Assembly: GCA_013373175.1 (NCBI GenBank) | Contig: JABXII010000016.1 | Span: forward strand, 124,001 to 188,000 | Origin: Campylobacteraceae bacterium | GTDB taxonomy: Bacteria > Campylobacterota > Campylobacteria > Campylobacterales > Arcobacteraceae | Direction: 5' to 3' | DNA: 64,000 bases | Shown: one piece after another, positions 3,686-42,250 of the stretch | Layout: each line of letters starts with the position of its first letter | Numbering within the stretch: position 1 is the stretch's first letter | Made by a program: the position numbers and the translations under genes | Notes under the pieces: model-generated | What the model saw: only the letters and a program-made list of their open reading frames with translations | What the model was told of the DNA's origin: nothing | Databases searched by the model: none

Positions 3686-5014
3686 TTATTTTTCTTTTTT
3701 TAATATAACTGTTGTTGAATTTTTATTTGTTAAATATTTTTTTGCAACTTTAGAGATATCTTTTCTTTTTAATTTTTCAATATTCTCTTCATATTCAAAA
3801 AGAGGTTTAGCATTTCCTCTTACAAAGTAACTCCCATAAAGTGAAGCTACAGAACTTGAATTCTCTAATGAGAAGATAAAATCAGCCTTAGTATTTATCT
3901 TAATTCTTTCAACTTCTTTTTTAGTGATTTTCCCATCTTTGATGTTTTGAATGATTTTATCAATCTCTTTTTTAACATCTTTTGCTTTTATTCCTTCATT
4001 GCAAACAGCTACAAAAAGAAAAACACCAGGGTCTGTTAATTCCATATTATATGCATATACTGAATTAACTAATCTTTTTTCATCTACAAGTATTTTTTGT
4101 AAATATGAACTTTTTCCAGCACTTAATAGCTCACTTAAAGCACTTAATGCAACTTGGTCTTCATGTTCATAGTTTGGAATATGATATGAAACGGCAAGCA
4201 TTTCTACTTGACTATCTTTATAAATAGTAATATTCTTTTCACCATCTTGTACTGGTTCTACTGTATGAATAGTTTCTGGAATCTCTTTTTCATTTTTAAT
4301 ATTTGCAAAATATTTTTCACTAGCTTTAAAAACTTCTTCTTTTGATATATCACCAGCTACAACTATAACTGCATTTTTAGGTTGATAATATGTAGAGTGA
4401 AAATCTCTAATATCATCAATTGTCCATGTCTTTATATCTTGTGTAAATCCAATTGGTGTCCAATGGTATGGATGATAGATATATGAATTATTAAAAAGTC
4501 TATACTGTAAATATCCCATTGGGTTATTATCAGTTCTCCATCTTCTCTCTTCTGCTACTACATCTCTTTCTGGTTGAAACTCTTCATCTTTTAAAGTTAA
4601 GTTCTCCATTAATTCTGCAAAAAGTTCTAAAGATTTATTCATATTTTGAGAACTTGATTTGATGAAATATTTTGTATAATCAAAAGATGTTGAAGCATTA
4701 TTCACTCCACCAAAACCTTTTACTACTTCATCAAATTCACCTGCTTCTAAATTTTTTGTAGACTTAAAGTTTAAGTGTTCTAGCATATGAGCAATTCCAC
4801 TTTTCCCCATAACTTCATTTCTGCTTCCTACGTTATAAAAAATGTTTGTAGAAACTACATTTGAACCATTGTCCATAGGTATAGCAACAATTTGTAGGCC
4901 ATTATCTAATGTTTTAGTATGATATTTTAATAAACTATTAGCCATTAACTCTCCTGTGAAAATAATGAATAGTGAAAAGTAAATAATGAATGATTTAAAA
5001 CTTCTAATACTCAT
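3686..5014 (-). CDS. M16 family zinc peptidase (pitrilysin/processing-peptidase type)
   Basis: A 442-residue protein beginning with a signal-peptide-like hydrophobic stretch (residues 9-22), so export to the periplasm is likely. It has the inverted zinc motif HMLEH (76-80, HxxEH) and a third ligand at E156 in AEERRWR, 76 residues on, as in the family. A second, non-catalytic M16 half follows, including the RLVNSVYAY-like region. Substrate is unknown. It sits between pyrD and dapA on the same strand. Confidence 0.9.
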   Translation of the reverse strand: MSIRSFKSFIIYFSLFIIFTGELMANSLLKYHTKTLDNGLQIVAIPMDNGSNVVSTNIFYNVGSRNEVMGKSGIAHMLEHLNFKSTKNLEAGEFDEVVKGFGGVNNASTSFDYTKYFIKSSSQNMNKSLELFAELMENLTLKDEEFQPERDVVAEERRWRTDNNPMGYLQYRLFNNSYIYHPYHWTPIGFTQDIKTWTIDDIRDFHSTYYQPKNAVIVVAGDISKEEVFKASEKYFANIKNEKEIPETIHTVEPVQDGEKNITIYKDSQVEMLAVSYHIPNYEHEDQVALSALSELLSAGKSSYLQKILVDEKRLVNSVYAYNMELTDPGVFLFVAVCNEGIKAKDVKKEIDKIIQNIKDGKITKKEVERIKINTKADFIFSLENSSSVASLYGSYFVRGNAKPLFEYEENIEKLKRKDISKVAKKYLTNKNSTTVILKKEK

Positions 5015-5031
5015 GTCTTTTCCTATTCTTT

Positions 5032-6090
5032 TTATTTTAAATCTGAACCAATTACTTCAGAAATACTATTAAATCCATCTTTTTGCATAAGTTCAAGAAT
5101 CTCTTCATTGATTTTTCTAACCATTGATGGACCTTCAAAAACTAAACCAGAATAAGCTTGTACAAGTGTTGCACCAAGCTTTAATCTTTTGTATGCTTCT
5201 TCTCCTGTTGAAATACCACCAACAGAAATCAGAACTGTTTTTCCAAATAACTCTTTTGCTATTTGCTCAAAAATTTCTCTTGATTTTTCTTTCAAGCACT
5301 CTCCACTTAAACCACCAAAATCTTTGGCATTAGGAACTAGTGAATAATCAATTGTTGTATTTGTAGCAATAATACCAGCAGCACCTGCATTTACTGCTGT
5401 CTTACATAATTCAACTGCTACATCAACTTCCATATCAGGTGCTATTTTTAGAAATATCGGTTTATCTGTAAGCTCTTTAGCCATACCAAATAGCTCATTA
5501 ATAAACTTTTCATTTTGTAAATCTCTTAAATTTGGAGTATTTGGACTAGAGATATTTATTACTAAATAATCGCTTGTGTCTTTAAACTTCCTAATTAAAG
5601 CTTTATAATCTAAAAGAGCATGCTCTTCAGGTGTTGTTTTATTTTTACCAATATTAACTCCAACAGGGATAGTAAAAGGGTAAACTTTTTTTAAGTTTTC
5701 TAATACTTTTGCTGAACCTTCATTATTAAATCCCATTGCATTCTGAACAGATTTTTGTTCAGGGTATCTAAACATTCTAGGTTTAGGGTTTCCATCTTGA
5801 GCTCTTGGTGTCATTGTTCCAATTTCAGTAAAACCAAACCCAAGTGCAGGCATAGATTTAATCATAGTTGCATTCTTGTCAAAACCTGCTGCAAGTCCTA
5901 CTGGATTTTTAAATTCAATTCCAAAAACTTCTTGTGTAAGTTTTGGGCTCATCACAAAATTTTTCTTTACCATATAATTGTTTAGAATTCTACAGTTAGG
6001 TAAAACTCTTAATCCATACTCTCCTAAATGGTGAGCAGTTTCAGGTTGAAACAAAAATAATATTTTCTTTAATGTGTTATAGGTAAACAA
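5032..6090 (-). CDS. pyrD: Dihydroorotate dehydrogenase, quinone-dependent (class 2)
   Basis: Oxidises dihydroorotate to orotate in pyrimidine synthesis and passes electrons to quinone. The 352-residue length, the N-terminal amphipathic membrane-associating extension (about residues 1-45) and the catalytic-serine motif NISSPNTPN identify class 2. FMN-binding segments (IATNTT, VGGIST) are visible. The start is TTG (complement of 6088-6090) behind AAGGG at a normal distance; no upstream ATG exists in frame. Confidence 0.95.
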   Translation of the reverse strand: MFTYNTLKKILFLFQPETAHHLGEYGLRVLPNCRILNNYMVKKNFVMSPKLTQEVFGIEFKNPVGLAAGFDKNATMIKSMPALGFGFTEIGTMTPRAQDGNPKPRMFRYPEQKSVQNAMGFNNEGSAKVLENLKKVYPFTIPVGVNIGKNKTTPEEHALLDYKALIRKFKDTSDYLVINISSPNTPNLRDLQNEKFINELFGMAKELTDKPIFLKIAPDMEVDVAVELCKTAVNAGAAGIIATNTTIDYSLVPNAKDFGGLSGECLKEKSREIFEQIAKELFGKTVLISVGGISTGEEAYKRLKLGATLVQAYSGLVFEGPSMVRKINEEILELMQKDGFNSISEVIGSDLK

Positions 6091-6151
6091 ATATTTCCCT
6101 TTTTATGAAATTTTAACATTTTATCTAAAAAGTATTGAAAAAAACTTGATA

Positions 6152-7900: not shown

Positions 7901-9208
7901 CTAAATTTTACTAAAATACAATGTTTTAAGGTTTTTTAAACCAAACTCTTTTAAAGTAAGTAAAAGAAGAATAAAACCACTAAGTGTACTTGCGAAAGCA
8001 AGTCCTGCTGCACCGTATGGTTTTATAAGTAATAATGAAAATACAATGTTGAAAGCTAGTGCTTTCATTGAGATTTTAGCAGCTAAAAACTGCTTTTCAT
8101 GAGAGTAAAGCCAAAGTGAGAAAATCTTTGCTAAACCATAAGGTAGAAGACCAATTAAATACATTGTTAAAATAATTGCTGTATTTGTTGTATCAGAATT
8201 TGTAAAAGCTCCTCTTTCAAATAAAAGCCAAATAATTTCATTGTCAAAAACTATTCCAATTAATGTAGCAATAGAAAGTAGTCCTATAAGGATAATTGAA
8301 GACTTTTTCATAAGTTTTAAAGCTCTGTTTTCATCTTTGTTTTTTATTGCTTTTGCAATCATAGGAAATAGGGCAACTGATGTTGCAATGGCAAAAAGAG
8401 CAAGAGGAAGTTGGAAAACTCTATTTGCATAATAAAGGTATGAAATTGAACCACTAACTAAAAATGAAGCAAGCCAAGTATCTAAAAATGCTGAAATATG
8501 AGCAGTTGAACTTCCTAGTGTTGCTCCAAAGAAGCTTTTGTAAAACCTATTTTCTTCTTTTTTCTTATGTTTTTTAAAAGTAAATATTTTACATAGATTA
8601 TATTTTTTTACAGCAAGAAGATGAACTAATACTTGTAAAAGTCCACCTGCTAACACTCCATAAGAAAGATAAAAAGTGATTTCATACTTCTCTAAATCTT
8701 TAGATATTAAAAGTGCTGCAATAAGTGCAAGATTTAAAAGTGCAGTTGAAAATGCTGTTGTTGCAAAGTGATTTTTATATTGTAAAAGTGCAGCCATAAA
8801 TGTTACTACAAAAATTAAAGGTAAATAATAAAAGTTTATAGCAACTAAAGGTGCAGCTAAATCAATGGTTTGTTCATCAAAACCTAAGGCAATAGCTTTT
8901 GTAATAAGGCTTGAAAATAAAGTCACTACTAGGGATAAAAAAATCAAAAAAGCGAATAGTTGCAAAAATATAATTGATGAAAATCTTATTTTATATTTTG
9001 ATTTGGAGTAAGAGGGTATAAAAGCTTGGGTAAAAGCTCCTTCCGCAAAGATTCTTCTAAAAAGATTTGGTAATTTAAAGGCAACAAAAAAGATATCTGA
9101 ATAGATATTTGCACCTAAAATTGAAGCTGTTAGTAAATCTCTTATAAATCCTAAAATCCTAGAGAATAAAATACCGCTACTGTTTGTAAAGATTGACTTA
9201 ATTAACAT
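7901..9208 (-). CDS. murJ: MurJ-type lipid II flippase
   Basis: A MOP-superfamily membrane protein of 435 residues with about twelve or more hydrophobic helices. The start (MLIKSIFTNSSGILFSRILG) and the segment LPNLFRRIFAEGAFTQAFIP are strongly diagnostic of MurJ/MviN. It moves lipid-linked peptidoglycan precursor across the inner membrane. Its ATG overlaps the end of the upstream nuclease-like gene by 11 bases, so the two are likely co-transcribed. Confidence 0.93.
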   Translation of the reverse strand: MLIKSIFTNSSGILFSRILGFIRDLLTASILGANIYSDIFFVAFKLPNLFRRIFAEGAFTQAFIPSYSKSKYKIRFSSIIFLQLFAFLIFLSLVVTLFSSLITKAIALGFDEQTIDLAAPLVAINFYYLPLIFVVTFMAALLQYKNHFATTAFSTALLNLALIAALLISKDLEKYEITFYLSYGVLAGGLLQVLVHLLAVKKYNLCKIFTFKKHKKKEENRFYKSFFGATLGSSTAHISAFLDTWLASFLVSGSISYLYYANRVFQLPLALFAIATSVALFPMIAKAIKNKDENRALKLMKKSSIILIGLLSIATLIGIVFDNEIIWLLFERGAFTNSDTTNTAIILTMYLIGLLPYGLAKIFSLWLYSHEKQFLAAKISMKALAFNIVFSLLLIKPYGAAGLAFASTLSGFILLLLTLKEFGLKNLKTLYFSKI

Positions 9209-10736
9209 TTATTATATCACTTTTATTAAATACTACTAATTGAATTTTGTTGACATAATATCCTAATTGTGCTCTTTTTATCATAATAGAAGAACCATTT
9301 TTAGGAATAAAATCTTTATTTCTGAAATATATTGCTATTTTTTTATTATCAAAATATAAATATCCTTTTTTATAGGTACCTTTTATATCTTTTACTATTT
9401 CATTTTGATTTTTTAAATCAAAAAAGTCAATTTGTTTTTTATAAAATTGTTTGTAGTCTAAAACTTTTCCATTATAATTTTCTATTTCAAAATCAATAAT
9501 CTCTTTTAATCCCTTATAGGTTTTTAATTGTTTTATTTCTAAATTATAAGAGAAACCTTCACTTAAGTTCTCAATATTTTTATAAATTAAAATAGCTCTA
9601 CTATTTTCTTGTTTTATAATTGCAAAATCTTCTTGTTTTAAAAGTACAATACAGTTTTTCAAAGTGATAGATTTATTAAGTCTTTCTACAAGGTATAAAT
9701 CACCAATAGTTTTCAAAACTTTATTTTTACTTTTTTTTTGTGCTTTGTCTGTAAATTTTGCAATTATAGGTAAATGATCAGAATAACCAACTCCTATATG
9801 GATTTTATTTTTCATTTGCCATCTATTTATTTTTTTGTTTTTATATAGATATTTAGGCTTAAATACTTTAAATGAATCATATTTGTATGCAAAACCTTTT
9901 TTATCAAACATGGAAAAAGGAAGTAAAAAGTTATCAGCAGTGATATTCCTTCCTCTAAATTTACTTGAAAACCTTTCTTTTACATTTAATTCAAGCCAAG
10001 GATTATAATGAAGTACTTTAGAAGAGTTTTGCATATCATTTAAAGTTAGTAAATGATTGTTTACAAAGCTATTTAAAACATGATTTATTCCAATTATGCC
10101 ATTTGTATTATTTAATCTTTTTTCAGAATAAATTGTTTCATACTCATTGTAATTTGAGTTAAAATCACCTAATAAAATATAGTCATAATCTCTTGGTAGT
10201 GTTTCTAATCTATCAAAAAGTTTCTTTGCAAACTTTATTCGATAACTCTCAGCTACTCTTTTCGATGGCCAATGATTATTAAAGATTTTAAACTCAGTAT
10301 TGTTTAATTTAAAGGTTGTTTCTAAAATAGGTCTATAGGTTTTATTTGAGAATTTTATATTAATAGATTTTTCATTTATTATTTCAATCTTACTTAAAAA
10401 TCCTAAGCCAATACTTGCATTTGAATATTTACTAAAAGAGATATATTTATAATCTGGAAGTTTTTTTTGAAGAAGTTTTAGAAGTTCTTTATTTTCTATT
10501 TCTTGTAATGCAACAATATCTGCATCTAAATCTTTTAAAACTTTTATAATATTGTTTAATTTTATTTGGAAAGTTTTTTTATTCCATTTTGATTTTGTGT
10601 TAGGGTGATACTCTTTGTATTCTGTTTTATTGTAGTTTAAATCAAAGAAATTCTCTACATTGTATGAAGCTACAGAAAACTCTTTTGAGAGTAATAATAG
10701 TGGTAAAAAAAATAAAAAAATAAAAACTCTTATCAA
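9198..10736 (-). CDS. Exported endonuclease/exonuclease/phosphatase-family protein
   Basis: A 512-residue protein with an N-terminal signal-peptide-like segment, then an EEP domain: SYNVENFFD, the metal-binding glutamate in DIVALQEIE, NHWPSK, LLGDFNSN and GYSDHLPI near residues 190-330. The C-terminal third resembles no domain I recognise but could be a nucleic-acid-binding fold. Extracellular DNase is the simplest role; phosphodiesterase on another substrate is possible. The start is TTG (10734-10736, complement) with a strong AGGAG six bases upstream. Confidence 0.82.
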   Translation of the reverse strand: MIRVFIFLFFLPLLLLSKEFSVASYNVENFFDLNYNKTEYKEYHPNTKSKWNKKTFQIKLNNIIKVLKDLDADIVALQEIENKELLKLLQKKLPDYKYISFSKYSNASIGLGFLSKIEIINEKSINIKFSNKTYRPILETTFKLNNTEFKIFNNHWPSKRVAESYRIKFAKKLFDRLETLPRDYDYILLGDFNSNYNEYETIYSEKRLNNTNGIIGINHVLNSFVNNHLLTLNDMQNSSKVLHYNPWLELNVKERFSSKFRGRNITADNFLLPFSMFDKKGFAYKYDSFKVFKPKYLYKNKKINRWQMKNKIHIGVGYSDHLPIIAKFTDKAQKKSKNKVLKTIGDLYLVERLNKSITLKNCIVLLKQEDFAIIKQENSRAILIYKNIENLSEGFSYNLEIKQLKTYKGLKEIIDFEIENYNGKVLDYKQFYKKQIDFFDLKNQNEIVKDIKGTYKKGYLYFDNKKIAIYFRNKDFIPKNGSSIMIKRAQLGYYVNKIQLVVFNKSDIINVN

Positions 10737-16467: not shown

Positions 16468-16682
16468 ATAAATGTTAACTATAAACTTTTAAATATATTC
16501 TTTTTATTTTAAACCAATTCTCAATAATATCATTAAATGCTATATTATATTATTTAATCACCACAATGTAATAATAATGTAACTTTATGCAATTTATAAA
16601 TACAAATAATAACTAAAAAGTAAGAAGTTTTAATTTACTTTTAACAGATATATTTATATTATATTTTACATAAGGAGTGATG

Positions 16683-18596
16683 ATGTTCAAAAGTATAAAG
16701 TTAAAACTAATGGCTATAGTAATACTTCCTGTAACAATAGCAATATTGATTACTACTGTTATTACTATAAATTTAACGCAAAAAAATAGTATTGAAACAC
16801 TAAAAGAGTTTGATAGTTCAATTGTTGGGGAAAAGAAAGAACTATTAAAAAATCAGATACTAACTGCGTATACAATAATAGATTCTATTGTTAAAAATTC
16901 TTCTAGTAAAGAAGAAGCAAAAGAAAAAGTTATTGATATTATTTCAAAGGCAAGGTTTCTAAAAGGAACTGGTTACTTTTTCGCTTATGAAAGAATAGGA
17001 AATGATTATTATTTTGCTTTTCATGGCACAAACCCAAACTTAAATGGTAAGAAAACAGATATTATGAAACCAGATATTAAAGGTTTTACATTTAGGAAAT
17101 CTTTAATTGATACTGCTAATGATGATTCAAAATTTGTTGAATACTATTATAAAAAGCCAAACACTGACAAAGTCTTAAAGAAAATGGCATTTTCAAAATA
17201 CATTGAAGAGTTAAACTGGACTATAGTTACAGGTATTTATGTAGATGATATTGAAGAAAAGATTGCAAAAATTCAAAATAGAATTGATAATGATGCAAAT
17301 ACATTAATTTATACATTAATAAGTATTGTTGTAGTTATAGTATTAGTTTTATTAGCAGTTGTTTCGTATATTTCAAAGATTTCAATAGTAGATCCACTGG
17401 AAACTTTTGAAAGAGGTTTATTGTCATTTTTATCATTTTTAAATAAAGAAAAAGATGATGTTGAACTTATTGAAATTACAACTAAAGATGAAATTGGAAA
17501 GATGACTGTTAAAATCAATGAAAATATTACAAAAATTAGAGAAACAATAAAACAAGACGATAAAGTAATTGAAGATGTTACTAGAATTGTAAGTGAAGTT
17601 AGTGCAGGGAACTTATCAAAAAGAGTTGAAGCTACATCTTCAAATGCAGTAATTAGTGAATTAACAAAAGATTTAAATGAAATGATTGCAAGTTTAAATA
17701 GTACTATTTCTCATACAATTGATGTTTTAAAAGCATATGAAAATAGAGATTTTACAAAAACAACTTCTTTAACCTGTAAAGGGCAATTATGTTCACTTAT
17801 GAGTGGTGTTGATAATTTAGGGAAAGAAATTACTCATATGCTTCAAGAAAATCTTGATACAGCAAATATGCTTAATAATAGTTCAGATAATCTAACTTCA
17901 AATATGGAAAGATTAACAGTAAGTGCAAATCAACAAGCAGCTTCTTTAGAAGAGAGTGCAGCAGCGTTAGAAGAGATTACTCAAACTATGAGAGAAAATA
18001 CAAATAACATCAATGAGTTATCTGCAAATTCAGTTTCACTAAGAGATGAAGTAAATAAAGGTAAAGAGTTATCTAAACAAACTAGCTCTTCTATGGAATC
18101 TATTAACTCTCAAGTTGAAGCTATTATTGAATCAATTACTATAATTGACCAAATTGCATTCCAAACAAATATTCTATCACTAAATGCAGCAGTTGAAGCA
18201 GCAACTGCAGGTGAAGCAGGTAAAGGTTTTGCAGTTGTTGCAGGTGAAGTTAGAAACTTAGCAAATAGATCTGCTGAAGCAGCAAAAGAGATTAAAGATT
18301 TAGTTGAAAGTGCAACTGCAAGAACAAATGATGGAAGAAAAATTGTTCAATCAATGTATGAAGGTTATGAAGAACTTAATACTAATATTCTAAAAACAAC
18401 AAGTATTGTTGATACTGTTACTACGAATTCAAAAGAACAGATGTTGGGAATTGAACAAATTAATAGTGCAGTTTCTCAGCTTGATAAAACTACTCAAGAA
18501 AATGCAGCAATTGCATCTGAAACAAACGATGTTGTAAAAAGTGTAAAACAAATGGCAACAGAAGTTGTAGAAGAGGTAAGAAAATCTAAATTCTAA
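16683..18596 (+). CDS. Methyl-accepting chemotaxis protein with Cache sensor
   Basis: A 637-residue chemoreceptor. One helix near residues 8-30, a single periplasmic Cache-type domain (about 35-205; [19 protein letters not shown] and [16 protein letters not shown]), a second helix near 210-232, a HAMP region, then a methyl-accepting signalling domain with the conserved hairpin tip [20 protein letters not shown]. Cache domains of this kind often bind small organic acids; the ligand is unknown. The ATG at 16683 is five bases from GGAG and is chosen over GTG/ATG codons immediately upstream. Confidence 0.93.
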
Positions 18597-18621
18597 AAGA
18601 AAAGTACTACACTTTTCTTTT
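18595..18621 (+). terminator. Terminator after the chemoreceptor gene
   Basis: Perfect 11-bp stem AAAAGAAAAGT (18595-18605) with ACTTTTCTTTT (18611-18621) around ACTAC. The left arm begins inside the stop codon, and the right arm itself is T-rich. Confidence 0.65.
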
Positions 18622-18680
18622 AATACTTCTTTGTAATTGATATTTTTGTAAAATAATATATTAATACAAAGAAGTAAATT

Positions 18681-19808
18681 ATGAACGACAACTTTTACAA
18701 AGACTTAAGATTATTAAAAGACTTTTCTAAAATCTCAGATACTTCCCTTTATACAAAAGTTCCAGGCACTTGGTATGTTTTAGTTAGTGATGTCAAAAAC
18801 TCAACAAAACAAATAGAAGAAGGAAAATATAAGCAAATAAATATGGTTGGTGCCTTAACTATTATTTCAATTTTAAATCTAAAAAAAGAGCTTGATATTC
18901 CTTATATTTTTGGAGGGGATGGTTCTTTTTTACTTATACCAAAATCCTTGTTAGATGAATCAAAACAAGCTCTTTTAGCAGTAAAAGAATTATCTAAAGT
19001 ATCTTATGGCTTAGATTTGAGAGTAGGGGTAATTCCTGTAAAAAAGATATATGAATTACAAAAAAGTTTATATATTGCAAAATATGAAGTTTCAAAGGAT
19101 TACTTTCAAGCTATTATAAAAGGTGGGGGTTTAGATTTAAGTGATGAGCTTTTAAAAAAAGATGAAACTTTCTATATAAAAGAAGAAAAAGATGAAACTT
19201 TTGATTTGGATATATCTGGATTAGAGTGTAGGTGGGAAGCAATAAAAACACCTAAAGATGAGAATTTAACAATTTTAATTAAAGCCTTTAATGATGATTA
19301 TTATAAAACTATCTTAGAAAAACTTGATGAGATTTTAGGTTCTAATGATACAAGAAACCCTATTACAAAAGAGGATTTAGTTTTAAGTTTTCAAGATAAG
19401 AACTTGGATATTGAAGCATCTTTATTTTCACAAAGTTTTTTAGGTAAGCTTTTAATAAGACAGAAATTAAAATTAATAAATCTTATTGGAAAATTTTTAA
19501 TGAGATTTGATATTGATAAATGGGGAAGCTATAAACAAAGAATAGTTTCAACAACTGATAATGAAAAGTTTGACGATATGTTAAGAATGGTAGTTTCTAC
19601 AAGTTTTAAACAAACAAAACTTTTGGAAGCTTATTTACAAAATGAACAAGAAAATAAAAATATAGTCTATGGAATTCATAAGTCTGATTCCTCTTTAATG
19701 ACTTGTTTAATTTTTGAAAGACATGGAAAACATGTACACTTTGTAGATGGTTCAAATGGTGGTTATGCATTAGCTGCTAAACAATTAAAATTAGGAAAAC
19801 AAAAATGA
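18681..19808 (+). CDS. DUF3095 family protein
   Basis: A 375-residue cytoplasmic protein. The start FYKDLRLLKDFSKISD and the segment WYVLVSDVKNSTKQIEEGKYKQINMVGA, followed by FGGDGSFLLIP, match DUF3095, a family distantly resembling class III nucleotide cyclases; whether it is an active cyclase is not known. Its stop overlaps the next gene by 4 bases (ATGA), so it is co-translated with the YqiA-like esterase. Confidence 0.82.
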   Translation: MNDNFYKDLRLLKDFSKISDTSLYTKVPGTWYVLVSDVKNSTKQIEEGKYKQINMVGALTIISILNLKKELDIPYIFGGDGSFLLIPKSLLDESKQALLAVKELSKVSYGLDLRVGVIPVKKIYELQKSLYIAKYEVSKDYFQAIIKGGGLDLSDELLKKDETFYIKEEKDETFDLDISGLECRWEAIKTPKDENLTILIKAFNDDYYKTILEKLDEILGSNDTRNPITKEDLVLSFQDKNLDIEASLFSQSFLGKLLIRQKLKLINLIGKFLMRFDIDKWGSYKQRIVSTTDNEKFDDMLRMVVSTSFKQTKLLEAYLQNEQENKNIVYGIHKSDSSLMTCLIFERHGKHVHFVDGSNGGYALAAKQLKLGKQK

Positions 19809-20404: not shown

Positions 20405-21394
20405 TTATTTTATAATTTTCCCATACGGTCCAAATTTATGGTCAAAGTTTTCCATATTTGGTCTATAAACATCTGGAGCTTTTACAATATCATCAGGGAA
20501 ATCAGAAGTTCTATTGATTTTCTCAGGTCTATAGTGACTATCTTGATTCATATATGCTGCTACATCATAAGACTCTTTATCTGTTAAAATAGGATTCTCT
20601 TTTGTTGCACCTAAAGGCATGTTTGCTTTGATAAAGTCTGCTGCTTTTAGGATTCTATACATACCAGCACCTTTATTATAAGTGTCATCAGTACCCCATA
20701 ATGCAGGGAACATATATCCGTTTGCTACACCTTCATTTTTAACACCTAAACCATTTGCACCATGACAAGAAGCACAGTGTTTTGTATAAACTTTTTTACC
20801 ATTTTCTACATCTGCTTTAGTTGTTTTAACCATTTTTCTATCAACTTTAGTAAGTCTTCTACCATCAACTTTAGCTCCACCTACAGGGTAACCTTGACTT
20901 AAGAAGTGCATGTAAGCTTTCATAGCTTTCATCTCTTTACCTTCAGCAGGAAGAGGATATCCATTCATACTTCTTTGCATACATCCATTAATTCTAGCTG
21001 TTAAAGTTCCAATTCCATCTTCTCTTGGTCTATATTGTGGAAACTCTCCGTAAGTTCCAATAAATGGAGCAGAGAATTTTTTTGTACCCGCATCTAAGTG
21101 GCAGTTTTGACAGGCATTATTATTTCCTGCATATCTCATACTCATATCTTCAACTTCAGGTCCAATATATTTATATGTATGAACAATAAGCTCTTTACCA
21201 TATCTTACTAATTTACCATAGTCATTATCTGGTAATTTATCAATATTTGGAACTTTATATTCCATCTTTTGTTTTGAAAAACCTCTATCACTTCTTTTTT
21301 GTAACTCTTTTTTATCAAATGCTAAAGCATTTGAACAAAACAGTGTCGCTATCAGTGTGGAAACAAGAATAAGTTTTTTGTTGCTAAGTTTCAT
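20405..21394 (-). CDS. TsdA-type dihaem cytochrome c (thiosulfate dehydrogenase/tetrathionate reductase)
   Basis: An exported 329-residue protein (signal peptide 1-25, ending SNALA) with two haem motifs, CQNCH (95-99) and CASCH (207-211). Between them lies INGCMQRSMNG (C138), where the TsdA family places the unusual cysteine haem ligand, and M259 in ANMPLG is a likely ligand of the second haem. TsdA interconverts thiosulfate and tetrathionate in the periplasm. The direction used here cannot be told. It lies 80 bases downstream of a same-strand sensor/regulator/kinase trio. SD AAAGGAG supports the start. Confidence 0.82.
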   Translation of the reverse strand: MKLSNKKLILVSTLIATLFCSNALAFDKKELQKRSDRGFSKQKMEYKVPNIDKLPDNDYGKLVRYGKELIVHTYKYIGPEVEDMSMRYAGNNNACQNCHLDAGTKKFSAPFIGTYGEFPQYRPREDGIGTLTARINGCMQRSMNGYPLPAEGKEMKAMKAYMHFLSQGYPVGGAKVDGRRLTKVDRKMVKTTKADVENGKKVYTKHCASCHGANGLGVKNEGVANGYMFPALWGTDDTYNKGAGMYRILKAADFIKANMPLGATKENPILTDKESYDVAAYMNQDSHYRPEKINRTSDFPDDIVKAPDVYRPNMENFDHKFGPYGKIIK

Positions 21395-21474
21395 AAGTAA
21401 CTCCTTTTTTTATCTGTATCATTGTACAAATATAAAGTTACTTTTATGTTTACTTTTAATAATATGATTTAAGT

Positions 21475-22617
21475 TTAAATAAAGAAACTGTATCTGAAAG
21501 TAGTTCCGTCTTCTTTTGAAGATTCTAAAAAAATATCTATATTATTTATTCTACAAATATTTTTTACAATATTCAATCCAATACCAAAACCACCCTTAAT
21601 ATGGTTCTCTTTCTGGTATCTATCAAAGATGTTTTTCTTATTTTTTATAGGTGGTGCAATGTTAGTTACACTAAATATTATTTGGTCATTTTTTTTATAC
21701 AAGTTTATTGTTATATCTGTTTCATTAAATGAATATTTAATTGCATTTGAGAGAGTATTATCAATTATTCTTAATAAATGAGTTCTATTTATTAAAAGTG
21801 TTAAGTTATCTTCAATATTTAATTTTAGATTTATTTCTTTGGGATTTGCTAGACTTTCAAACTGGTCTATTCTTTGTTTTAAAAGATAAGAAAAGTCTAT
21901 TTGTTCTTTATTATATTTTACTGTTTTTTCTTTTATTAAGTATTCAATATCTTCATATACTAAAAATAGATTTTTTGTTGCATTTATTGATCTTTGAAGC
22001 TCTTTGGAATTTGTTTTATTAATTTCTTGTTTTTCTTCTAACATTTCAAGGTTTAATTGAATAATTCCAAGGGGTGTTTTAAGTTCATGCATCGCATCAT
22101 TGAAAAAGGCATCTAAATATTCATTTGCTTTTTTATATGGCTCTACACTTGCTTTTATAATTAAATATATAGAGATAAATATAAACAATCCAATACATAC
22201 AAATAAAATAAGTATTTTTAAGTAAACTTCTTCATAAGATATCTTTTTTGAAACCTTTAGATATTTTGCATTTAGTCTATTTTTAGATAATTCAACCTCT
22301 AGACTTAAAAGTTTTGAGTTTTTATCTAAGTTTAGGTTTCTTGTTTTATAAATTATTTGTTTTTTATCTGTTAATAATGTTGCTTCATATTTAAAAGATT
22401 TTGGAAAAATAAAGGTATCACTTTTAGAATTTGAAAAATCATAAATAGTTCTTTGAACCTTTTGTGCATACTCTATAAGAACTCTATTTTGACTATTTTT
22501 ATAACTTTCAAGTTCTAAATTTGTATAAAAATATGTAGGTATTGCAATAAAAATAAAAAATATTGCAGTATAAAAAAGAGATACTTTTAATATAAAATTT
22601 TTACTCTTCTCTATCAA
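21475..22617 (-). CDS. Membrane sensor histidine kinase
   Basis: A 380-residue kinase with two membrane helices (about 10-30 and 130-155) enclosing a small periplasmic domain of about 95 residues, then HisKA (DAMHELKTPLG) and an ATPase domain with N-box DNTLSNAIKYS and G-box GGFGIGLNIV. No HAMP is evident. Start is TTG at 22617, overlapping the regulator gene end by 17 bases with AGGA at suitable distance. Third gene of the sensor/regulator/kinase unit. Confidence 0.9.
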   Translation of the reverse strand: MIEKSKNFILKVSLFYTAIFFIFIAIPTYFYTNLELESYKNSQNRVLIEYAQKVQRTIYDFSNSKSDTFIFPKSFKYEATLLTDKKQIIYKTRNLNLDKNSKLLSLEVELSKNRLNAKYLKVSKKISYEEVYLKILILFVCIGLFIFISIYLIIKASVEPYKKANEYLDAFFNDAMHELKTPLGIIQLNLEMLEEKQEINKTNSKELQRSINATKNLFLVYEDIEYLIKEKTVKYNKEQIDFSYLLKQRIDQFESLANPKEINLKLNIEDNLTLLINRTHLLRIIDNTLSNAIKYSFNETDITINLYKKNDQIIFSVTNIAPPIKNKKNIFDRYQKENHIKGGFGIGLNIVKNICRINNIDIFLESSKEDGTTFRYSFFI

Positions 22618-23266
22618 TTTTATATCCTATTCCTCTTTGGTTTATAATAAACTCTTTAGAGGTTTTATCTCTGATTTTTTTGATACAAACTCGAATGTCT
22701 GCTTCACAAATATATTTATCATCCCATACTTCACTTCTAAGAGTTTCTATGCTTATATATTGATTTTTGTTTGAAACTAAACAAAAAACTACATCACTTT
22801 GTTTTTTTGTTAGGTTTATGATTTCATCATCTTTTTTAAGCTCTTTTTTTAAAATATCATAGGTGAAATCTGGTTTTAGCTTTATTTGCTTAGTTGTTTC
22901 ATTTGTATAAAAAAGTTTTATAAGTTGTTCAATTCTATATTTTAACTCTTTTGGAGAAAATGGTTTCTTTATATAATCATTACATCCAAGCTCATAACCT
23001 AAGCTTAGATTATTTATATCTGTTAAAGAAGTTATATAAATAACAGGTGTATTATCACCGTTTTCTCGTATTGTTTTTACTAACTCATATCCACTTAAAG
23101 AAGGAACTCTAATATCAAGAATTAGAAGATGATATTTATTTTCATGAATTGCACTTAAAGCCTCTTCTCCATCTTCAAAATCATCGATATTGTAGTTTAA
23201 AGACTCTAAATACTCTTTAATACTTTGTCTATAATCTAAATCATCTTCAAGTAGTAAAAGTCTCAT
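22601..23266 (-). CDS. OmpR/PhoB-type response regulator
   Basis: 221 residues: N-terminal receiver with acidic pair LEDDLDYR, phosphoacceptor aspartate in LLILDIRVPS, threonine in YITSLTD and lysine in IKKPFSP; C-terminal winged helix ending in IRDKTSKEFIINQRGIGYKI. It is expected to be phosphorylated by the kinase encoded next. Its start overlaps the stop of the upstream sensor gene by 4 bases (ATGA). Confidence 0.94.
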   Translation of the reverse strand: MRLLLLEDDLDYRQSIKEYLESLNYNIDDFEDGEEALSAIHENKYHLLILDIRVPSLSGYELVKTIRENGDNTPVIYITSLTDINNLSLGYELGCNDYIKKPFSPKELKYRIEQLIKLFYTNETTKQIKLKPDFTYDILKKELKKDDEIINLTKKQSDVVFCLVSNKNQYISIETLRSEVWDDKYICEADIRVCIKKIRDKTSKEFIINQRGIGYKIDREE

Positions 23267-24153
23267 TTTATTTTCACCTTAGAGTCTATATTTACAGTTT
23301 CATAGTCAAAACTATTATTGATATTTATATGTTTATTGTTTTTTATTCCAGTAAAGATATATCCCAAATGATTGTTCTGTAAGTCATAATAAGAAAAATA
23401 TGCAAAAGAGAAGTTTTTGTTTGATACATATCCATAATCTTCTAAACTATCAAGGTTTAAACCTTTTAAGTAGTCTATATTTGTATTATTTACTAAGATA
23501 TAGTTTGAAATTTTATCATTGTTTTTAAGCTCATTTGCAATATTTAAATACTTTTTATTTAAAAGAACAAAAAGTTTATATCCTTTTTTCTTTAGTTCTT
23601 TACTTAAATACTCAAAATCTATGATTGCTTCAATTGAACCAAGATATTTGTTGTCTTCTATAATTGCAGAAATGGCTTTTATATTAAGTCTTTTCCCTAA
23701 CTCAATTGAAACAAGAGGTTGTTTTGACTCTTTTACTTTTACTAAACCTTGTCTAAAAGAAGCTAAAGGCACATCTTTTATATTTATGTCCCAACTTCTT
23801 AAATACGTAGTTAGGTTTTTATTATGAATTTGTATTTCGAAGTTGCTATCTTGTAGTTGTTTTAAACTTTTTATTTTTCTATTTACAATCTCAAAGCTTT
23901 CTTGTCTATCTTGTTTTTTAAAACTATTTATTATCTCTTTATCTTCTGATAATAAAATAGCTAAAGATAGGGCATATCTTTTTTGTTCTTCAAAAAGGTT
24001 CTTTGTAGTAGTTAAAGAGTTTTCAAGTTTGTTTAAAAGGTTGTTACTGTTATTTAAATTGTTTAGAAAATAGAAGATTAATACAACAAAAAAAGAGGTG
24101 ATAAAAAGTATTATTAATAAATACTTATTAGGTTTTGAGTTTAAATATCTCAA
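23263..24153 (-). CDS. Membrane-anchored periplasmic Cache-like sensor without output domain
   Basis: A 296-residue protein with one hydrophobic helix (residues 12-31), a coiled segment, then an apparently periplasmic ligand-binding region with the stretch QIHNKNLTTYLRSWD and ISAIIEDNKYLGSIEAIIDF, which resembles the double-Cache sensors of chemoreceptors and kinases. It ends without a second helix or signalling domain. Starts at TTG (24153) after GAGGTGAT. Overlap with the regulator gene suggests it works as a separate sensing subunit for the downstream kinase; this is inference. Confidence 0.72.
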   Translation of the reverse strand: MRYLNSKPNKYLLIILFITSFFVVLIFYFLNNLNNSNNLLNKLENSLTTTKNLFEEQKRYALSLAILLSEDKEIINSFKKQDRQESFEIVNRKIKSLKQLQDSNFEIQIHNKNLTTYLRSWDINIKDVPLASFRQGLVKVKESKQPLVSIELGKRLNIKAISAIIEDNKYLGSIEAIIDFEYLSKELKKKGYKLFVLLNKKYLNIANELKNNDKISNYILVNNTNIDYLKGLNLDSLEDYGYVSNKNFSFAYFSYYDLQNNHLGYIFTGIKNNKHININNSFDYETVNIDSKVKIK

Positions 24154-28482: not shown

Positions 28483-29085
28483 TTAAAGGTATAAAAATAT
28501 TACTATAAGGGCTATTCCAAGAAGTGTTAAATATATGCCTCTTTGTTTAAATCCATATTTTCCTTTAACCATAAATATTGCAGAAATAGCAAGAAAGAAT
28601 AAGATTAAAGAATAAACTAATGCTAGATATGACCATTTATCTTTAGTTGATGATTTGTGAGCTTTTATAAAAGTATTGATAAAAGTTGGATATCCACTAA
28701 TTGAATAAATCACTTCACCAGAAGTTTTGTAGTAGGTAATAAATTTCATATCTTTTTTTCTTGATATTTGATATTTTGTAAATTCATTGTTATTTTCAAG
28801 TAATTTAAAACTATTTAAAATAGATTTTTTATTGATATGAGCAGGTAAACTCTTTTTTTCCTCACTTTTACTAAAAGCACTGATTAATTTATTTTGTAAT
28901 TCTTCTTCTTTGATATTTTTTTCAATTGTTGTATTTAAGATATACTCTTTTTCAAAAAGATGTAAATCTCTAACGGAAAGGATAATTCCTGATATTGAAT
29001 AAACAATAGTTATTCCAATAACTAAGTAACCTAAGTCTCTATGCCAGTTTCTAAAAGTAGTTGAAAGTTTTTTCTTTTTTTTCAT
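28483..29085 (-). CDS. PepSY-associated membrane protein
   Basis: 200 residues. The N-terminal motif RNWHRDLGYLVIGITIVYSISGI is the PepSY-associated transmembrane helix; a periplasmic portion (about 40-140) and two C-terminal helices follow. Such proteins often accompany iron or siderophore uptake, but nothing adjacent supports that here. It is transcribed alone. Confidence 0.75.
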   Translation of the reverse strand: MKKKKKLSTTFRNWHRDLGYLVIGITIVYSISGIILSVRDLHLFEKEYILNTTIEKNIKEEELQNKLISAFSKSEEKKSLPAHINKKSILNSFKLLENNNEFTKYQISRKKDMKFITYYKTSGEVIYSISGYPTFINTFIKAHKSSTKDKWSYLALVYSLILFFLAISAIFMVKGKYGFKQRGIYLTLLGIALIVIFLYL

Positions 29086-36614: not shown

Positions 36615-36630
36615 TTAAAAAAGGATAATG

Positions 36631-37821
36631 ATGGGGAAATATGTAAATATAAAGATTTTAGATAAAGATTGTAAAGGTATATATTTATTTACAAATGCAG
36701 ATATAAAAATCATCACTGATCCAAAAGAAGCTACAAAACTACTTACAAATCCTTTTAAATTGCAGTTAAGAACAAAAGTTGGAAATAAGACAGGTAAAAA
36801 GACATTTGAATTCAATAAGAAGAAAACAACTTTTTTATCTGCATTGGAAGAAGTAGCAAGTCAAAGACAAACTATAAAAAATATTTTGATAAAAGAGGGA
36901 ACTTTAAGACCGAAGAAGGTAGTTATTGAAGAGTCAAAAAAAGCTGTAACATTTTTAGAGGTAGCAAATAGATATATTGAAACAAAATCTATTTCGGCAA
37001 GAGCTTCTACTATTCAAAACTATAAAACTGCTTTATTAACTCATTGTAGCCCATTACATAATTTATCAATTGAAGATATTACTGTTGATGATGTTCAGGA
37101 CATAATTAATGAGCAGATGCAAACTAAAGCACCTGCAACTGTTTCATTATTGGGTGTTACTATTAAAACATTTGCAAAGAAAATTGGATTAAATTTAGAT
37201 GGATTGGAATTACCAGAGTTTGATAATAAAGTTGAATTTACTTTAAGCCTTGAAGATACTAAAAAAATTATTAAAGCAATGAGAGAATATTCAAGATTAC
37301 CAATAGAGGGTGAGGCAGTTTATCAATATCCTGAAATAAGAAATATATTTGCTTTTTTACTAACAGGTCGAAGAATTAGTGAAGTATTAGGATTGCGTTA
37401 TTCTGATATTAATTTTGAGACGAATGTGTTTAAAATCCCATCAAGTAGAGCGAAGGGTAAGAAGGATTTAGTTTACAATTTAGACAGTTATTTATTAGAT
37501 GCGATCAAACGGCAAGCATCTGCAACAGGTGTTACGGACATGACCATAGATAGGAGATTGTTTACATATACGAAAGAAACTCCAAGAATACATTTCCAAT
37601 CTCTCTTAAAGGCTCTAGGTATTAAGAAACTAAGGTTACATGATATAAGACATATGTTAGGATCAACACTGGTTCAACACGGCGTTCCCATTGCAGACAT
37701 TAGTGTTATGCTTGGACATAGTAGTATTGCAATTACAGAAGATAGATATGCAAGTAAAACAAAAGATCAAGCATCTAGAGCAATAAAAGCTCTAGATGAT
37801 TTAGTAGGTGGCAATAGTTAA
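36631..37821 (+). CDS. Tyrosine-recombinase integrase of the element
   Basis: 396 residues. An N-terminal arm-binding-like domain (1-100), a SAM-like core-binding domain (about 110-190; FLEVANRYIETKSISARASTIQNY) and a catalytic domain with the full set of residues: arginine in LLTGRRISEVLGLR, H-x2-R in LHDIRHMLG, histidine in LGHSSIAITEDRYA and the nucleophile tyrosine there. It lies next to attL. ATG 36631 is chosen over 36628 for its five-base distance from AAGGA. A copy of the arm-like repeat overlaps its stop codon. Confidence 0.93.
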   Translation: MGKYVNIKILDKDCKGIYLFTNADIKIITDPKEATKLLTNPFKLQLRTKVGNKTGKKTFEFNKKKTTFLSALEEVASQRQTIKNILIKEGTLRPKKVVIEESKKAVTFLEVANRYIETKSISARASTIQNYKTALLTHCSPLHNLSIEDITVDDVQDIINEQMQTKAPATVSLLGVTIKTFAKKIGLNLDGLELPEFDNKVEFTLSLEDTKKIIKAMREYSRLPIEGEAVYQYPEIRNIFAFLLTGRRISEVLGLRYSDINFETNVFKIPSSRAKGKKDLVYNLDSYLLDAIKRQASATGVTDMTIDRRLFTYTKETPRIHFQSLLKALGIKKLRLHDIRHMLGSTLVQHGVPIADISVMLGHSSIAITEDRYASKTKDQASRAIKALDDLVGGNS

Positions 37822-37829
37822 GTGTACTT
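37820..37829 (+). repeat. Solitary arm-like repeat at the integrase stop codon
   Basis: AAGTGTACTT, identical to the copies at 36579 and 36603, overlapping the TAA stop. Confidence 0.55.
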
Positions 37830-37854
37830 ATCTAGTATAAAGATTTTAGTAAGG

Positions 37855-39291
37855 TTACGTTTGTTCTAATATTATTCTTCGTGAAGTATTTAAAAGCGCT
37901 AAAGCTAAACTTTTATCTGTATCTGGATATTTTAATTGTCTTAAAGCATATGCATATAGACAAGCTCCAATATCTCTTTTTCCAACAGATAATTCTTCTG
38001 TCCATTTTCTACAGAAACTTATTTCATCAGGAATAGGACATCCTTCGATATATTTTTCTAAATCTTCCCAGTTATTAAGATTTTCTATAGTTGGCCATCC
38101 TTTATTATCTAGTCCATCTGGATGAAATAAGAAACTACATTCTAATGTAATAGGGTCAATAGTTGATGCACCTTCATTTACATCTCCATAATCAATAAGA
38201 GTAGAAGTATTACCTGAGGTATCTATTAGAATATTTTCACCATGCAAATCTCCATGATAACAAGATTTAGTCGATTGGAAAAGAATTTCTTCAATTTCTG
38301 TTACCCAACTCAAATCATATTTTTCTACAAGTTTTTGTGCAATTTTATCAGAAACTAAACTTCTTCTAATTTCAATTATCTTTGTTCTATGTTGAGTCTT
38401 TGCACTATGCCAAGGTTTTAAAATCTCTTTAATACTTTCTCTAATTGAAGAATTATTTTTATTTTCTTTTGTGGCCCCAAAGTAAGAAAAATCATAATTT
38501 GTAACTAAACCATAGAATACACCTGAATTAGATTTTGCTCCATAATTGATTTTTATTATCTTTCTTGGAGTAACACTCTGATCTAATCTATTGATATATT
38601 TTTCATAATTATTTGCATCTTCATTAACTTCATCCATTTTTCCACATTTTGCTATAGTTTTAATAATAACATGGCCTTGTTCATTGAAAACTTCTAATGC
38701 GTAGACTTTGACTCCTGATAAACCACCTCCAATTGTTTTTACTTTAGTAAATACAGCAGATTGAGATTTTGTAAACATTCTAATTAGTCTATCATGTTCA
38801 ATTGGAAGTGATTCACTTGTCTGTAGCTCAATTTCAAATAATTTTTTTACAGAATTATAGATATCTTCTATTTTTTTAAAAAATTTATCAGTATTTACTT
38901 TTGAAACATATGAAATAGTTGAATATTTATTATTATCAAACCATATTTTATGTCTATTTGAATATCCTAAAAATTCATCAATCATATCTTCAGTCCCTGT
39001 ACCTGTTAGGATTATTACAGGTGTACCTTTTGCATATTCTTGACATTCTGCTAATATCGATAGCCCATGTTCTGGTTTTTGATCAAGTTTACCTTTGTCT
39101 GAAGGTATTTGTAAATCTAATGTGATTAAATCAAAAAAAGGTGTATCTTTTATTATAGTTAATGCCTCTTTCACATTTTCTGCTAATGTAATATCAATCG
39201 AATTACCATATTTATATAATTCTTCTATTAATGTATCTGATATTTCACTTTCATCTTCAATTATAAGTATTCTAAATTTATTTATGCTCAT
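37855..39291 (-). CDS. Response-regulator receiver fused to an APH/protein-kinase-like domain
   Basis: 478 residues. Receiver at 5-140 with acidic pair E12/D13, phosphoacceptor D59 (LITLDLQIP), T96 in ILTGTG and K131. Then a kinase-like domain: glycine loop IGGGLSGVKVY (187-197), possible ATP lysine K211, catalytic loop HGDLHGEN (346-353) and metal site LIDYGD (365-370), all features of aminoglycoside/choline phosphotransferases and related kinases. It may match a conflict-system kinase domain (I recall TCAD9, unverified). The ATG at 39291 is two bases after the kinase stop. Last gene of the operon and its probable effector. Target unknown. Confidence 0.82.
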   Translation of the reverse strand: MSINKFRILIIEDESEISDTLIEELYKYGNSIDITLAENVKEALTIIKDTPFFDLITLDLQIPSDKGKLDQKPEHGLSILAECQEYAKGTPVIILTGTGTEDMIDEFLGYSNRHKIWFDNNKYSTISYVSKVNTDKFFKKIEDIYNSVKKLFEIELQTSESLPIEHDRLIRMFTKSQSAVFTKVKTIGGGLSGVKVYALEVFNEQGHVIIKTIAKCGKMDEVNEDANNYEKYINRLDQSVTPRKIIKINYGAKSNSGVFYGLVTNYDFSYFGATKENKNNSSIRESIKEILKPWHSAKTQHRTKIIEIRRSLVSDKIAQKLVEKYDLSWVTEIEEILFQSTKSCYHGDLHGENILIDTSGNTSTLIDYGDVNEGASTIDPITLECSFLFHPDGLDNKGWPTIENLNNWEDLEKYIEGCPIPDEISFCRKWTEELSVGKRDIGACLYAYALRQLKYPDTDKSLALALLNTSRRIILEQT

Positions 39292-39293
39292 TA

Positions 39294-40187
39294 TCAACTT
39301 TCCCACTTTAACATTAGTTGTGCACCAACTTCATTATTTTTTAAGGTTGCATCACCACCTAAACTTTCCATTGCTTGTTTAATAATACCAAGTCCAAAAC
39401 CTGTATGTTTTGTTTTACTAGTAGCTCCAATTCTAAACATGTTTTCAGGATCATCACTAAGTCCAATACCTTCATCTTCTATACATATCCAAGTATCGAC
39501 ATCTGTTTTCCCCCATTTTAAAGTTAAAAATTTAGGATTATCTGCTTCTAATTCAAGTAAAGATTCTTTTGCATTTCTGATTCCATTTGAAATTGCTAGA
39601 TACAGCAAGTTTTTATCTGTTTTTATAATAAAAGGTTGGCTACCTTCATAAGTTACTTTTATTGAAGAATCAGTTTCTTGACTTACAATATCTATAATTA
39701 ATTGGTATAGGTTAATTTCTGAAATTTCTGGAGGAGCAGAAGATTTCCTTAATGATTCTAATGCATAAAAAATTCTTTCAAATGTTTCAATACTATTCTT
39801 AGTTTTACTTGTCTCATAACTATTTACTTCTCTTTGAGCATTTATTTTTAATAATCCTATATTACGAGCTAGTTCATGTAAAATTACTCCTGAGAATTCA
39901 TCAATTGCTTTTGCTTTAATATATCGATTTATCTTTTCTTCATCTTCTGAAGAAGAAAAAAAAGATTTTTCATCTATTTCTTTTATTACTTCCATTTCCT
40001 CTAAATTATTAATTGCTCTTGTAAGTAGTTTCTTTATATGTTCAACTTTTTCAGTTCGTTTACACATAATTAGCATTTTTTTCATTTCAGGGTCTTTATG
40101 TTTAATAAAAAACTTTACGGCATTAATTCTATCTCTAATTAAATGTGATTGAAGATCTTTTAAGGCTGTTTCATAATTATATTCCAT
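39294..40187 (-). CDS. Soluble histidine kinase with helical N-terminus
   Basis: 297 residues with no membrane segment. Residues 1-70 look like a HEAT-type helical repeat (HLIRDRINAVKFFIKHKDPEMKKM). The phosphoacceptor helix has H104 in ILHELARNIG; the ATPase has N-box SNGIRNAKESL (200-210), G1 DEGIG (238-242) and G2 GFGLGI (263-268). All catalytic boxes are present, so it should be active. ATG 40187 overlaps the ATPase gene end by 11 bases. Probable donor to the receiver encoded next. Confidence 0.85.
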   Translation of the reverse strand: MEYNYETALKDLQSHLIRDRINAVKFFIKHKDPEMKKMLIMCKRTEKVEHIKKLLTRAINNLEEMEVIKEIDEKSFFSSSEDEEKINRYIKAKAIDEFSGVILHELARNIGLLKINAQREVNSYETSKTKNSIETFERIFYALESLRKSSAPPEISEINLYQLIIDIVSQETDSSIKVTYEGSQPFIIKTDKNLLYLAISNGIRNAKESLLELEADNPKFLTLKWGKTDVDTWICIEDEGIGLSDDPENMFRIGATSKTKHTGFGLGIIKQAMESLGGDATLKNNEVGAQLMLKWES

Positions 40188-42015: not shown

Positions 42016-42189
42016 TGAAATCCTTAAAGCTTAATATTCTAAATTATGATATTTTATCTAAATTATATTGAACAACAGTTAACTTATAAAATTATGATAA
42101 TTAAAAATCTAAACCCATAATAATATTTTGTAATTTACTACATAAACTAGCTTTTCATATGTAAAAATAGTTTTATTCTTACTGAAAAG

Positions 42190-42220
42190 TTGACTTGAAA
42201 AATATTCAATCACATATTAT
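42190..42220 (+). promoter_or_regulatory. Candidate promoter of the 26-residue gene
   Basis: TTGACT (42190-42195) with CATATT (42213-42218, 17-base spacing) or TATTAT (42215-42220, 19-base spacing). It precedes the mini-gene's SD by about 20 bases. The 235-base stretch from 42016 to 42250 otherwise shows no coding frame and must also hold the leftward operon promoter. Confidence 0.5.
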
Positions 42221-42250
42221 CTCTTTGAAAATCAATATTAAGGAGTACAA

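Follow-up and report, generated by a model that had tools for sequence, protein, structure and literature searches.

The locus described here raises the question of whether a periplasmic sensory protein with no output domain of its own can work with a separately encoded kinase and regulator to control TsdA, a dihaem thiosulfate dehydrogenase / tetrathionate reductase. It lies on the minus strand of a 64,000-nucleotide (nt) stretch of DNA from a member of the Arcobacteraceae, referred to below as the window, in which the genes for a membrane-anchored periplasmic protein (SEN), a response regulator (RR) and a histidine kinase (HK) form a trio immediately upstream of tsdA. Comparison of this locus with its relatives suggests that SEN, RR and HK are probably one sensory system that switches on tsdA, with thiosulfate as the most likely ligand. 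The evidence comes from the linkage of trio and tsdA in other genomes, a promoter repeat that follows the RR in evolution, and sister trios beside two other sets of thiosulfate genes.

The trio and tsdA in the window

The gene order on the minus strand is ftsY, SEN, RR, HK, tsdA, and the last four genes are all open at the coordinates given here. SEN (24153-23263), which begins with a TTG start behind AGAGGTG, encodes a 296-residue, membrane-anchored periplasmic dCache_3 protein, the presumed receptor. RR (23266-22601) is of the OmpR/PhoB type with Response_reg and Trans_reg_C domains, HK (22617-21475; TTG start) carries HisKA and HATPase_c domains, and TsdA (21394-20405) has a signal peptide together with SoxA-TsdA_cyt-c (PF21342) and Cytochrom_C (PF00034) domains. 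SEN and RR overlap by 4 nt and RR and HK by 17 nt, and a gap of 80 nt leads from HK to tsdA. Gene coordinates and Pfam domains thus agree with the initial annotation, in which an anchored Cache protein without output, a regulator and a kinase overlapped and were followed by tsdA on the same strand. Directly upstream of SEN lies the housekeeping gene ftsY (25178-24177, minus strand; TIGR00064 over cut-off), which ends 23 nt before SEN and is presumably co-transcribed with the trio.

SEN matches PF14827 (dCache_3) with an E-value of 2.3e-12 and 47.4 bits against a curated cut-off of 25.7, and a Pfam search up to E 1 gave this family alone, with no output domain. Its one hydrophobic segment spans residues 12-30. 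Single-sequence and profile searches of SEN against PDB sequences returned no useful match. The AlphaFold2 (AF2) model, with a mean predicted local distance difference test (pLDDT) score of 89.6, has a double Cache fold. In VIA structure comparison the membrane-distal lobe (residues 49-186) aligns with the citrate receptor CitA over 129 residues (Z 17.3, 2.2 A) and the whole model with DctB (3by9) over 214 residues (Z 15.2, root-mean-square deviation 3.8 A), making the fold akin to those of the oxyacid receptors CitA, DctB and DcuS. Residues R119, W121, R134, E151 (one row has Asp) and K/R159 are common to the 25 compared rows, which comprise SENs of three classes (class I beside tsdA, classes II and III described below) and methyl-accepting chemotaxis proteins (MCPs); judged from this alignment, the cationic set R119, W121, R134 and K/R159 suits an anionic ligand. 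The class I SEN alignment has no conserved Cys column, which speaks against thiol chemistry in this protein. The distances of SEN and HK are correlated (r 0.92) after FtsY is accounted for, a value that gene linkage alone could yield.

By alignment, the two signalling partners are catalytically intact as a two-component pair of the OmpR type. In RR the phosphoacceptor D51 and residues E7, D8 and K101 are invariant in 40 rows, and in HK the phosphoacceptor H177 is invariant in 35 rows along with N287 and N291. HK has two hydrophobic segments (8-26 and 136-154) that enclose a periplasmic part of about 100 amino acids. Its only Pfam matches are HisKA and HATPase_c, no HAMP domain being found, its matches in the PDB are to known kinases via the common kinase core, and the mean pLDDT of its AF2 model is 83.2.

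TsdA, in turn, matches PDB entries 4v2k/4wq7 (E 2.9e-37) and 5lo9 (E 1.3e-38), and C138, R141, S142 and M259 are invariant in 21 alignment rows. C138 occupies the position of the haem-1 Cys ligand and N258-M259 lie at the haem-2 site, so that the protein, on alignment, has the haem domains and haem-ligand residues of its family. At the haem-2 site Campylobacter jejuni TsdA is described as having Asn-Met, as in the window, and the Allochromatium vinosum enzyme Lys-Met (PMC5146829).

Linkage of the trio and tsdA in relatives

A scan of 104 genomes of the family, in which 80 bits or more counted as a clear tsdA, found the gene in 63 and the trio beside it in 62 of these, the window's own genome included (one contig, L052, ends before HK). 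Forty genomes, among them three of the window's genus (G059, G065 and G066), have neither SEN nor tsdA, so that the two are jointly present or absent in 102 of 104; the other two are cut by contig ends, tsdA standing at a contig start in G101 and SEN-RR at a contig end in G100. A second scan, seeded solely with SEN peptides, yielded 70 named loci from Arcobacter-like genera, Sulfurimonas, Sulfurovum, Sulfurospirillum, Nitratifractor and others, with tsdA adjacent in 59 and the place hidden by contig ends in 11. The initial annotation held that the proposal would fail if the trio sat away from tsdA in relatives; instead, adjacency is seen in 61/61 resolvable family loci and 59/59 resolvable named loci. 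Judged by SEN sequence, 26 loci occur in both sets, leaving 95 distinct resolvable loci besides the window, all of which keep tsdA next to the trio.

Conservation of the four-gene order, also raised in the annotation, holds for adjacency and fails for the order itself, which takes three forms: trio-tsdA in 46 of the distinct loci, tsdA-trio in 46 and divergent in 3. All four genes were seen in 93 of the 95, L052 and L179 ending too early. In one genus (g39), 16 genomes have SEN and tsdA divergent by coordinates, with RR and HK mapped in one of them (L212). The 4-nt SEN/RR overlap recurs in 105 of 128 measurements over both locus sets (shared loci counted twice). The SEN-RR-HK-tsdA arrangement is not due to chance, as the distance between tsdA and the trio stays within 11-139 nt in every locus that shows tsdA.

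At the level of the order, a hand count of 70 genomes with tsdA at E 1e-40 gave 51 with an adjacent trio, 2 cut by contig ends and 17 without a trio (neighbourhoods inspected for 10 of these 17). The trio is therefore tied to tsdA more strictly than tsdA is to the trio. The enzyme gene is also the more changeable partner: TsdA falls into two deep types, with 58-97% (type A) and 31-37% (type B) identity to the window protein, and these swap within single genera (e.g. g15 and g17) while SEN, RR and HK stay orthologous, indicating that the enzyme gene changed and the trio remained.

In two of the 17 trio-less genomes tsdA stands beside another two-component pair (L205 of G157 and L207 of G323). 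The kinases of these pairs (588-590 amino acids, weak dCache_3 match) were considered as a fusion argument for SEN and HK belonging to one sensor and were rejected as proof of it, since they lack the R-x-W and FR motifs and E151; the tsdA promoters have C-rich repeats by eye, but in this pair of promoters period 11 does not reach significance (z 1.7). Other suspected fusions, dCache_3 proteins of about 650-720 amino acids, were likewise set aside: L258 and L266 are MCPs by Pfam, and L256, L257, L259-L265 and L267-L269 match the L266 MCP at 261-758 bits.

A promoter repeat that follows the regulator

An 11-bp direct repeat lies over the -35 region of tsdA and is followed by a -10 box, approximately (T/G)TTAC-N6-(T/G)TTAC-N10-TATAAT. 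In 89 representative promoters the period-11 signal has a z-score of 12.9, with periods 12 (5.4) and 9 (4.0) as runners-up. In the window the predicted RR operator and -10 box of tsdA, placed by motif score, occupy 21421..21452 on the minus strand (TAAACATAAAAGTAACTTTATATTTGTACAAT); the score of 20.7 is the best in the window, but this promoter belongs to the training set. The identical 32-mer occurs in two further loci (L061 and L064), and the site is strongly conserved within the window's clade. An earlier -10 offset profile was flat, partly since a different repeat, CTTAA-N6-CTTAA, had been picked in the window's clade, and was replaced by a composite model of repeat and -10 box. Trained repeatedly, each time without one lineage, this model recovered sites at a shuffle p<0.05 in 26/27 loci of clade 2, 20/28 of the window's clade (clade 1) and 18/34 of other families, as against 0/11 for tsdA or tsdA-like genes without an adjacent trio.

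The operator evolves with RR far more closely than with TsdA or FtsY. Over 24 clade 1 loci, operator and RR similarity correlate with r 0.77, and with a partial value of 0.76 after TsdA and FtsY are accounted for; the correlation with FtsY alone is 0.06. In this clade HK ends at the operator and the correlation could reflect physical linkage, hence the comparison was repeated in 37 loci of tsdA-trio order, in which the operator is next to tsdA and away from the trio. There the partial correlation is 0.32 for RR given TsdA and -0.02 for TsdA given RR.

In many loci of clade 1 the CTTAA-N6-CTTAA repeat, also of period 11, precedes the main operator and lies close to the stop codon of HK; the window has a copy at 21469-21484 (minus strand; CTTTA-N6-CTTAA). 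It is possibly a second RR site.

Sister trios beside phs and sox

Profile searches also returned stand-alone dCache_3 proteins of two further classes, of which a chosen part was analysed. Class II comprises seven trios in the order RR-HK-SEN, located downstream of a molybdoenzyme operon, with SEN on the opposite strand in L227 and L228; PhsA exceeds the NCBIfam cut-off in the three loci run, and PhsA-PhsB-NrfD homologues are present in all seven. Class III-like SENs have sox genes nearby in 10 of 13 loci. SoxX, Y, Z and A exceed NCBIfam cut-offs in L231, and sox homologues are found in the other sox-linked loci, including L239, where an inverted gene separates trio and sox, and L147, where SoxX and part of SoxY are within reach; the class III-like locus L238 is cut by a contig end. 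In a tree of 44 sensors the tsdA-, phs- and sox-types and the MCPs each fall on one side of a branch (supports 94/86, 100/96, 98/91 and 99/99), and target class requires three changes, the minimum. Two of the 12 sensors in the sox group, L234 and L238, come from loci in which no sox gene was observed.

A motif learned from tsdA promoters alone also recognises promoters of these operons. It scores 11.4-19.2 in six of seven phsA promoters, which had not been viewed before the motif test, and phsABC separates the predicted operators from the trio. For soxX, some promoters of which had been viewed earlier, seven of ten reach a score of 6 or more. Among 1218 other upstream regions from the same loci and the window, which served as control, 27 reach 6 and 15 reach 10. 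Several of the top control sites, as noticed afterwards, also stand in sulfur loci, before a coproporphyrinogen oxidase family gene, DsrE-family genes and dsbD; others, such as the tlpA promoter in L066, have no obvious fit.

Some of these neighbours recur. The radical-SAM coproporphyrinogen III oxidase family gene has its own operator-like site in L277 (47-1315, minus strand), L226 (6536-7801, minus strand), L271, L272 and L273; the two copies run match NF006385. In L271-L273 and L277 this gene and phsA point away from each other, and in L226 it follows SEN. DsrE-family genes with operator-like sites lie upstream of class III trios in L233 (4396-4860, score 13.3) and L235 (6142-6606, score 12.7). 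In L266 the sox cluster itself contains the gene of a dCache_3 MCP (4165-6123, minus strand), flanked by the class III kinase gene and soxX; this MCP is a candidate thiosulfate chemoreceptor.

The own genome of the window offers fewer targets. It has soxB, and no class II or III trio was found in it; of its three SEN matches one is the SEN of the window, one is an MCP and one is a protein truncated by a contig end. No PhsA exceeded the cut-off. In the sox region no site scores above 8.7, and ahead of the cluster's first gene all scores stay below 6. Because class II and III trios, a sox operator and PhsA are all missing there, the trio most likely serves tsdA alone in this genome. The operator 20-mer at 21437-21456 has its sole exact occurrence in the genome before tsdA. 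A wider regulon is not claimed, as 5 sites (one exact) were returned when up to 3 mismatches were allowed, compared with 13 for the control.

Proposed mechanism and alternative explanations

The suggestion in the initial annotation of a three-part sulfur-species sensor that controls TsdA gains support from the linkage, the RR-following repeat and the sister trios at phsABC and sox. From gene linkage, protein families, intact catalytic residues, the repeat with its link to RR and the three target classes, all read from sequence, we infer activation, the ligand, contact between SEN and HK and the transcript layout as follows. SEN would be anchored in the inner membrane by its one N-terminal helix and would use its membrane-distal Cache lobe to bind a small oxyanion of sulfur, thiosulfate being the likeliest. 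It would then signal in trans to the small periplasmic part of HK, which would phosphorylate RR; RR would bind the 11-bp direct repeat over the tsdA -35 region and recruit RNA polymerase, leading to activation. In the window genome the trio, placed after ftsY, would probably be made at a steady level and tsdA expressed from its own regulated promoter. The sister trios would likewise control phsABC, for thiosulfate reduction, and sox, for thiosulfate oxidation. Thiosulfate is a substrate common to TsdA, Sox and Phs, and is for this reason the ligand of first choice.

The same circuit and target could be kept with a different ligand, namely tetrathionate, sulfite, polysulfide or another periplasmic anion. 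This is possible though doubtful: the SEN lobe 49-186 is nearest to a citrate receptor, but Sox and Phs, the neighbours of the sister trios, use thiosulfate rather than tetrathionate. It is also conceivable, if unlikely, that HK senses through its periplasmic part and that SEN is a membrane accessory which tunes it, as QseG does for QseE. The roughly 100 amino acids that HK exposes to the periplasm would allow this, and accessory-driven kinases are described (PMC12691602, PMC6075780); however, SEN retains a two-lobe ligand-binding fold with a conserved cationic set, and the sensors sort by target class.

The direction of control and the identity of the target must be considered as well. Binding over the -35 region can also obstruct polymerase, and RR might repress tsdA instead of activating it. 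This is rather improbable, given that the repeat replaces the -35 hexamer at a fixed distance before the -10 box; a repeat in place of the -35 hexamer is the geometry of PhoB/OmpR-type activators. That the cluster is merely co-inherited, with the target of the trio elsewhere and tsdA a passenger, is very hard to credit. Linkage by itself does not prove control and tsdA can exist without the trio, yet the trio is always adjacent where readable, across three gene orders, the operator follows RR even across tsdA, its 20-mer is exact solely before tsdA in the own genome, and the phsA operators stand at the end of phsABC opposite the trio.

Several observations weigh against thiosulfate-responsive control of tsdA by the trio. 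The pocket residues of SEN are shared by all four compared MCPs and are not specific to TsdA loci, and tsdA occurs without a trio in 17 of 68 resolvable genomes of the order. When its own lineage is withheld from training, the operator of the window is not significant (p 0.14). In all, 8 of the 28 loci of clade 1 fail to reach p<0.05, and of the 20 recovered there, 5 have their hit elsewhere (L069, L080) or one repeat unit away from the later site (L070, L071, L083). The motif seed was written after tsdA and sox promoters had been viewed, which leaves the tests not fully blind, and the tallies and z-scores are inflated by the relatedness of the genomes. A partial correlation of 0.18 between operator and TsdA remains in the 24 clade 1 loci given RR and FtsY, and RR cannot be separated from HK in the 37 loci of the other order. 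Among the sister trios, the phsA promoter of G281 and the soxX promoters of L229, L239 and L266 are not significant, L234 has a class III-like trio with no sox in 11 kb, and L240 has SEN alone. One genome, G364 (L208), has tsdA behind a half-matching, operator-like GTTCCTTACAAGTTACA (p 0.13, not significant). No trio stands next to this gene, and a class I kinase was not found in G364; either the regulator was lost or the assembly has a gap.

Relation to known systems

Three-part systems with a separate extracytoplasmic protein include XylFII-LytS-YesN, LuxPQ and TorT-TorS, and the known examples use periplasmic-binding-protein or other folds. The trio has the defining composition of a three-component system, a separate extracytoplasmic protein encoded with HK and RR, and differs in that its presumed receptor is a double Cache domain that is anchored in the membrane and carries no output domain. 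HbpS-SenS-SenR is a further case (PMC4991794), and in all four, as would be the case in the trio, a ligand-binding or accessory protein with its own gene feeds the kinase. The dCache_3 chemoreceptors belong to the same domain family as SEN, with the same R-x-W, FR and K/R residues, but the three examined for domains (L266, L258 and L242) carry HAMP and MCPsignal in one chain, whereas SEN has no output domain.

Among sulfur regulators, RsrS/RsrR is named as a two-part system and belongs to another phylum with other targets, reportedly tetH and doxD. It is described as the two-component control of the tetrathionate-intermediate pathway in Acidithiobacillus caldus (PMC5093147). ThsS/ThsR of Shewanella halifaxensis is a thiosulfate-responsive two-component system beside phsAB-psrC whose RR activates phsA (PMC5408782), and the trio resembles it as a two-component regulator beside a thiosulfate enzyme gene. 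The ThsSR receptor, however, is a PhnD-like domain inside the kinase (PMC5408782), whereas the presumed receptor of the trio is a separate dCache_3 protein and its probable target in the window is tsdA. Tetrathionate sensing by TtrS/TtrR of Salmonella and Shewanella baltica again involves a PhnD-like domain inside the kinase (PMC5408782), and a Vibrio TtrSR is also described (PMC11293645). The feature that the trio would share is sulfur oxyanion sensing that controls a neighbouring reductase; in TtrSR this is tetrathionate reductase, the sensor is fused to the kinase and no separate receptor gene is described in the consulted text (PMC5408782). By Pfam and by the length of its periplasmic part, HK has no PhnD-like domain of the ThsSR/TtrSR type.

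In the consulted text of a review of Campylobacterota regulation, PsrR and others are named and no tsdA regulator (PMC6682613), and that of the A. butzleri genome paper lists three pairs with an additional adjacent sensor or regulator gene and gives no function (PMC2147049). A literature search over titles and the beginnings of abstracts, outside subscription papers, found no description of the trio and no account of how Campylobacterota sense thiosulfate. The parts of the trio are all of known kinds. A broader proposition, which could equally well prove right or wrong, is that Campylobacterota have a modular thiosulfate kit in which a detached dCache_3 receptor, anchored in the membrane and acting in trans, a kinase and a regulator were duplicated and, under one conserved operator grammar, wired to TsdA, Sox and PhsABC, enzymes of three different biochemistries, with a chemoreceptor of the same domain family in at least one sox cluster. 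Campylobacterota use thiosulfate in sulfidic water and sediment, and the trio offers a testable receptor, kinase, regulator and operator with three target operons. If the proposal is true, a Cache-type receptor would join the PhnD-type thiosulfate sensor and provide a clean case of a sensory domain acting apart from its kinase.

Other observations

A conserved protein of about 445 amino acids is encoded directly 3' of tsdA in seven loci (L147, at 8731-10077, L142, L154, L158, L206, L209 and L210) and also near the class III trio of L236 (6549-7955, minus strand), there with an operator-like site; the two copies run have no Pfam or NCBIfam match. In the window, further operator-like scores of 14.2, 11.0 and 8.7 fall at 28789-28820 (plus strand) and 16552-16624 (minus strand). 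By the open reading frame (ORF) list and Pfam, a Cache-domain MCP followed by a DUF3095 protein occupies 16677-19808 on the plus strand. Inspection of the ORF list by eye places an integrase-like gene, then receiver, ATPase-like and AAA-like proteins and a second short integrase-like ORF at 36628-43060, a region that is perhaps a mobile island.

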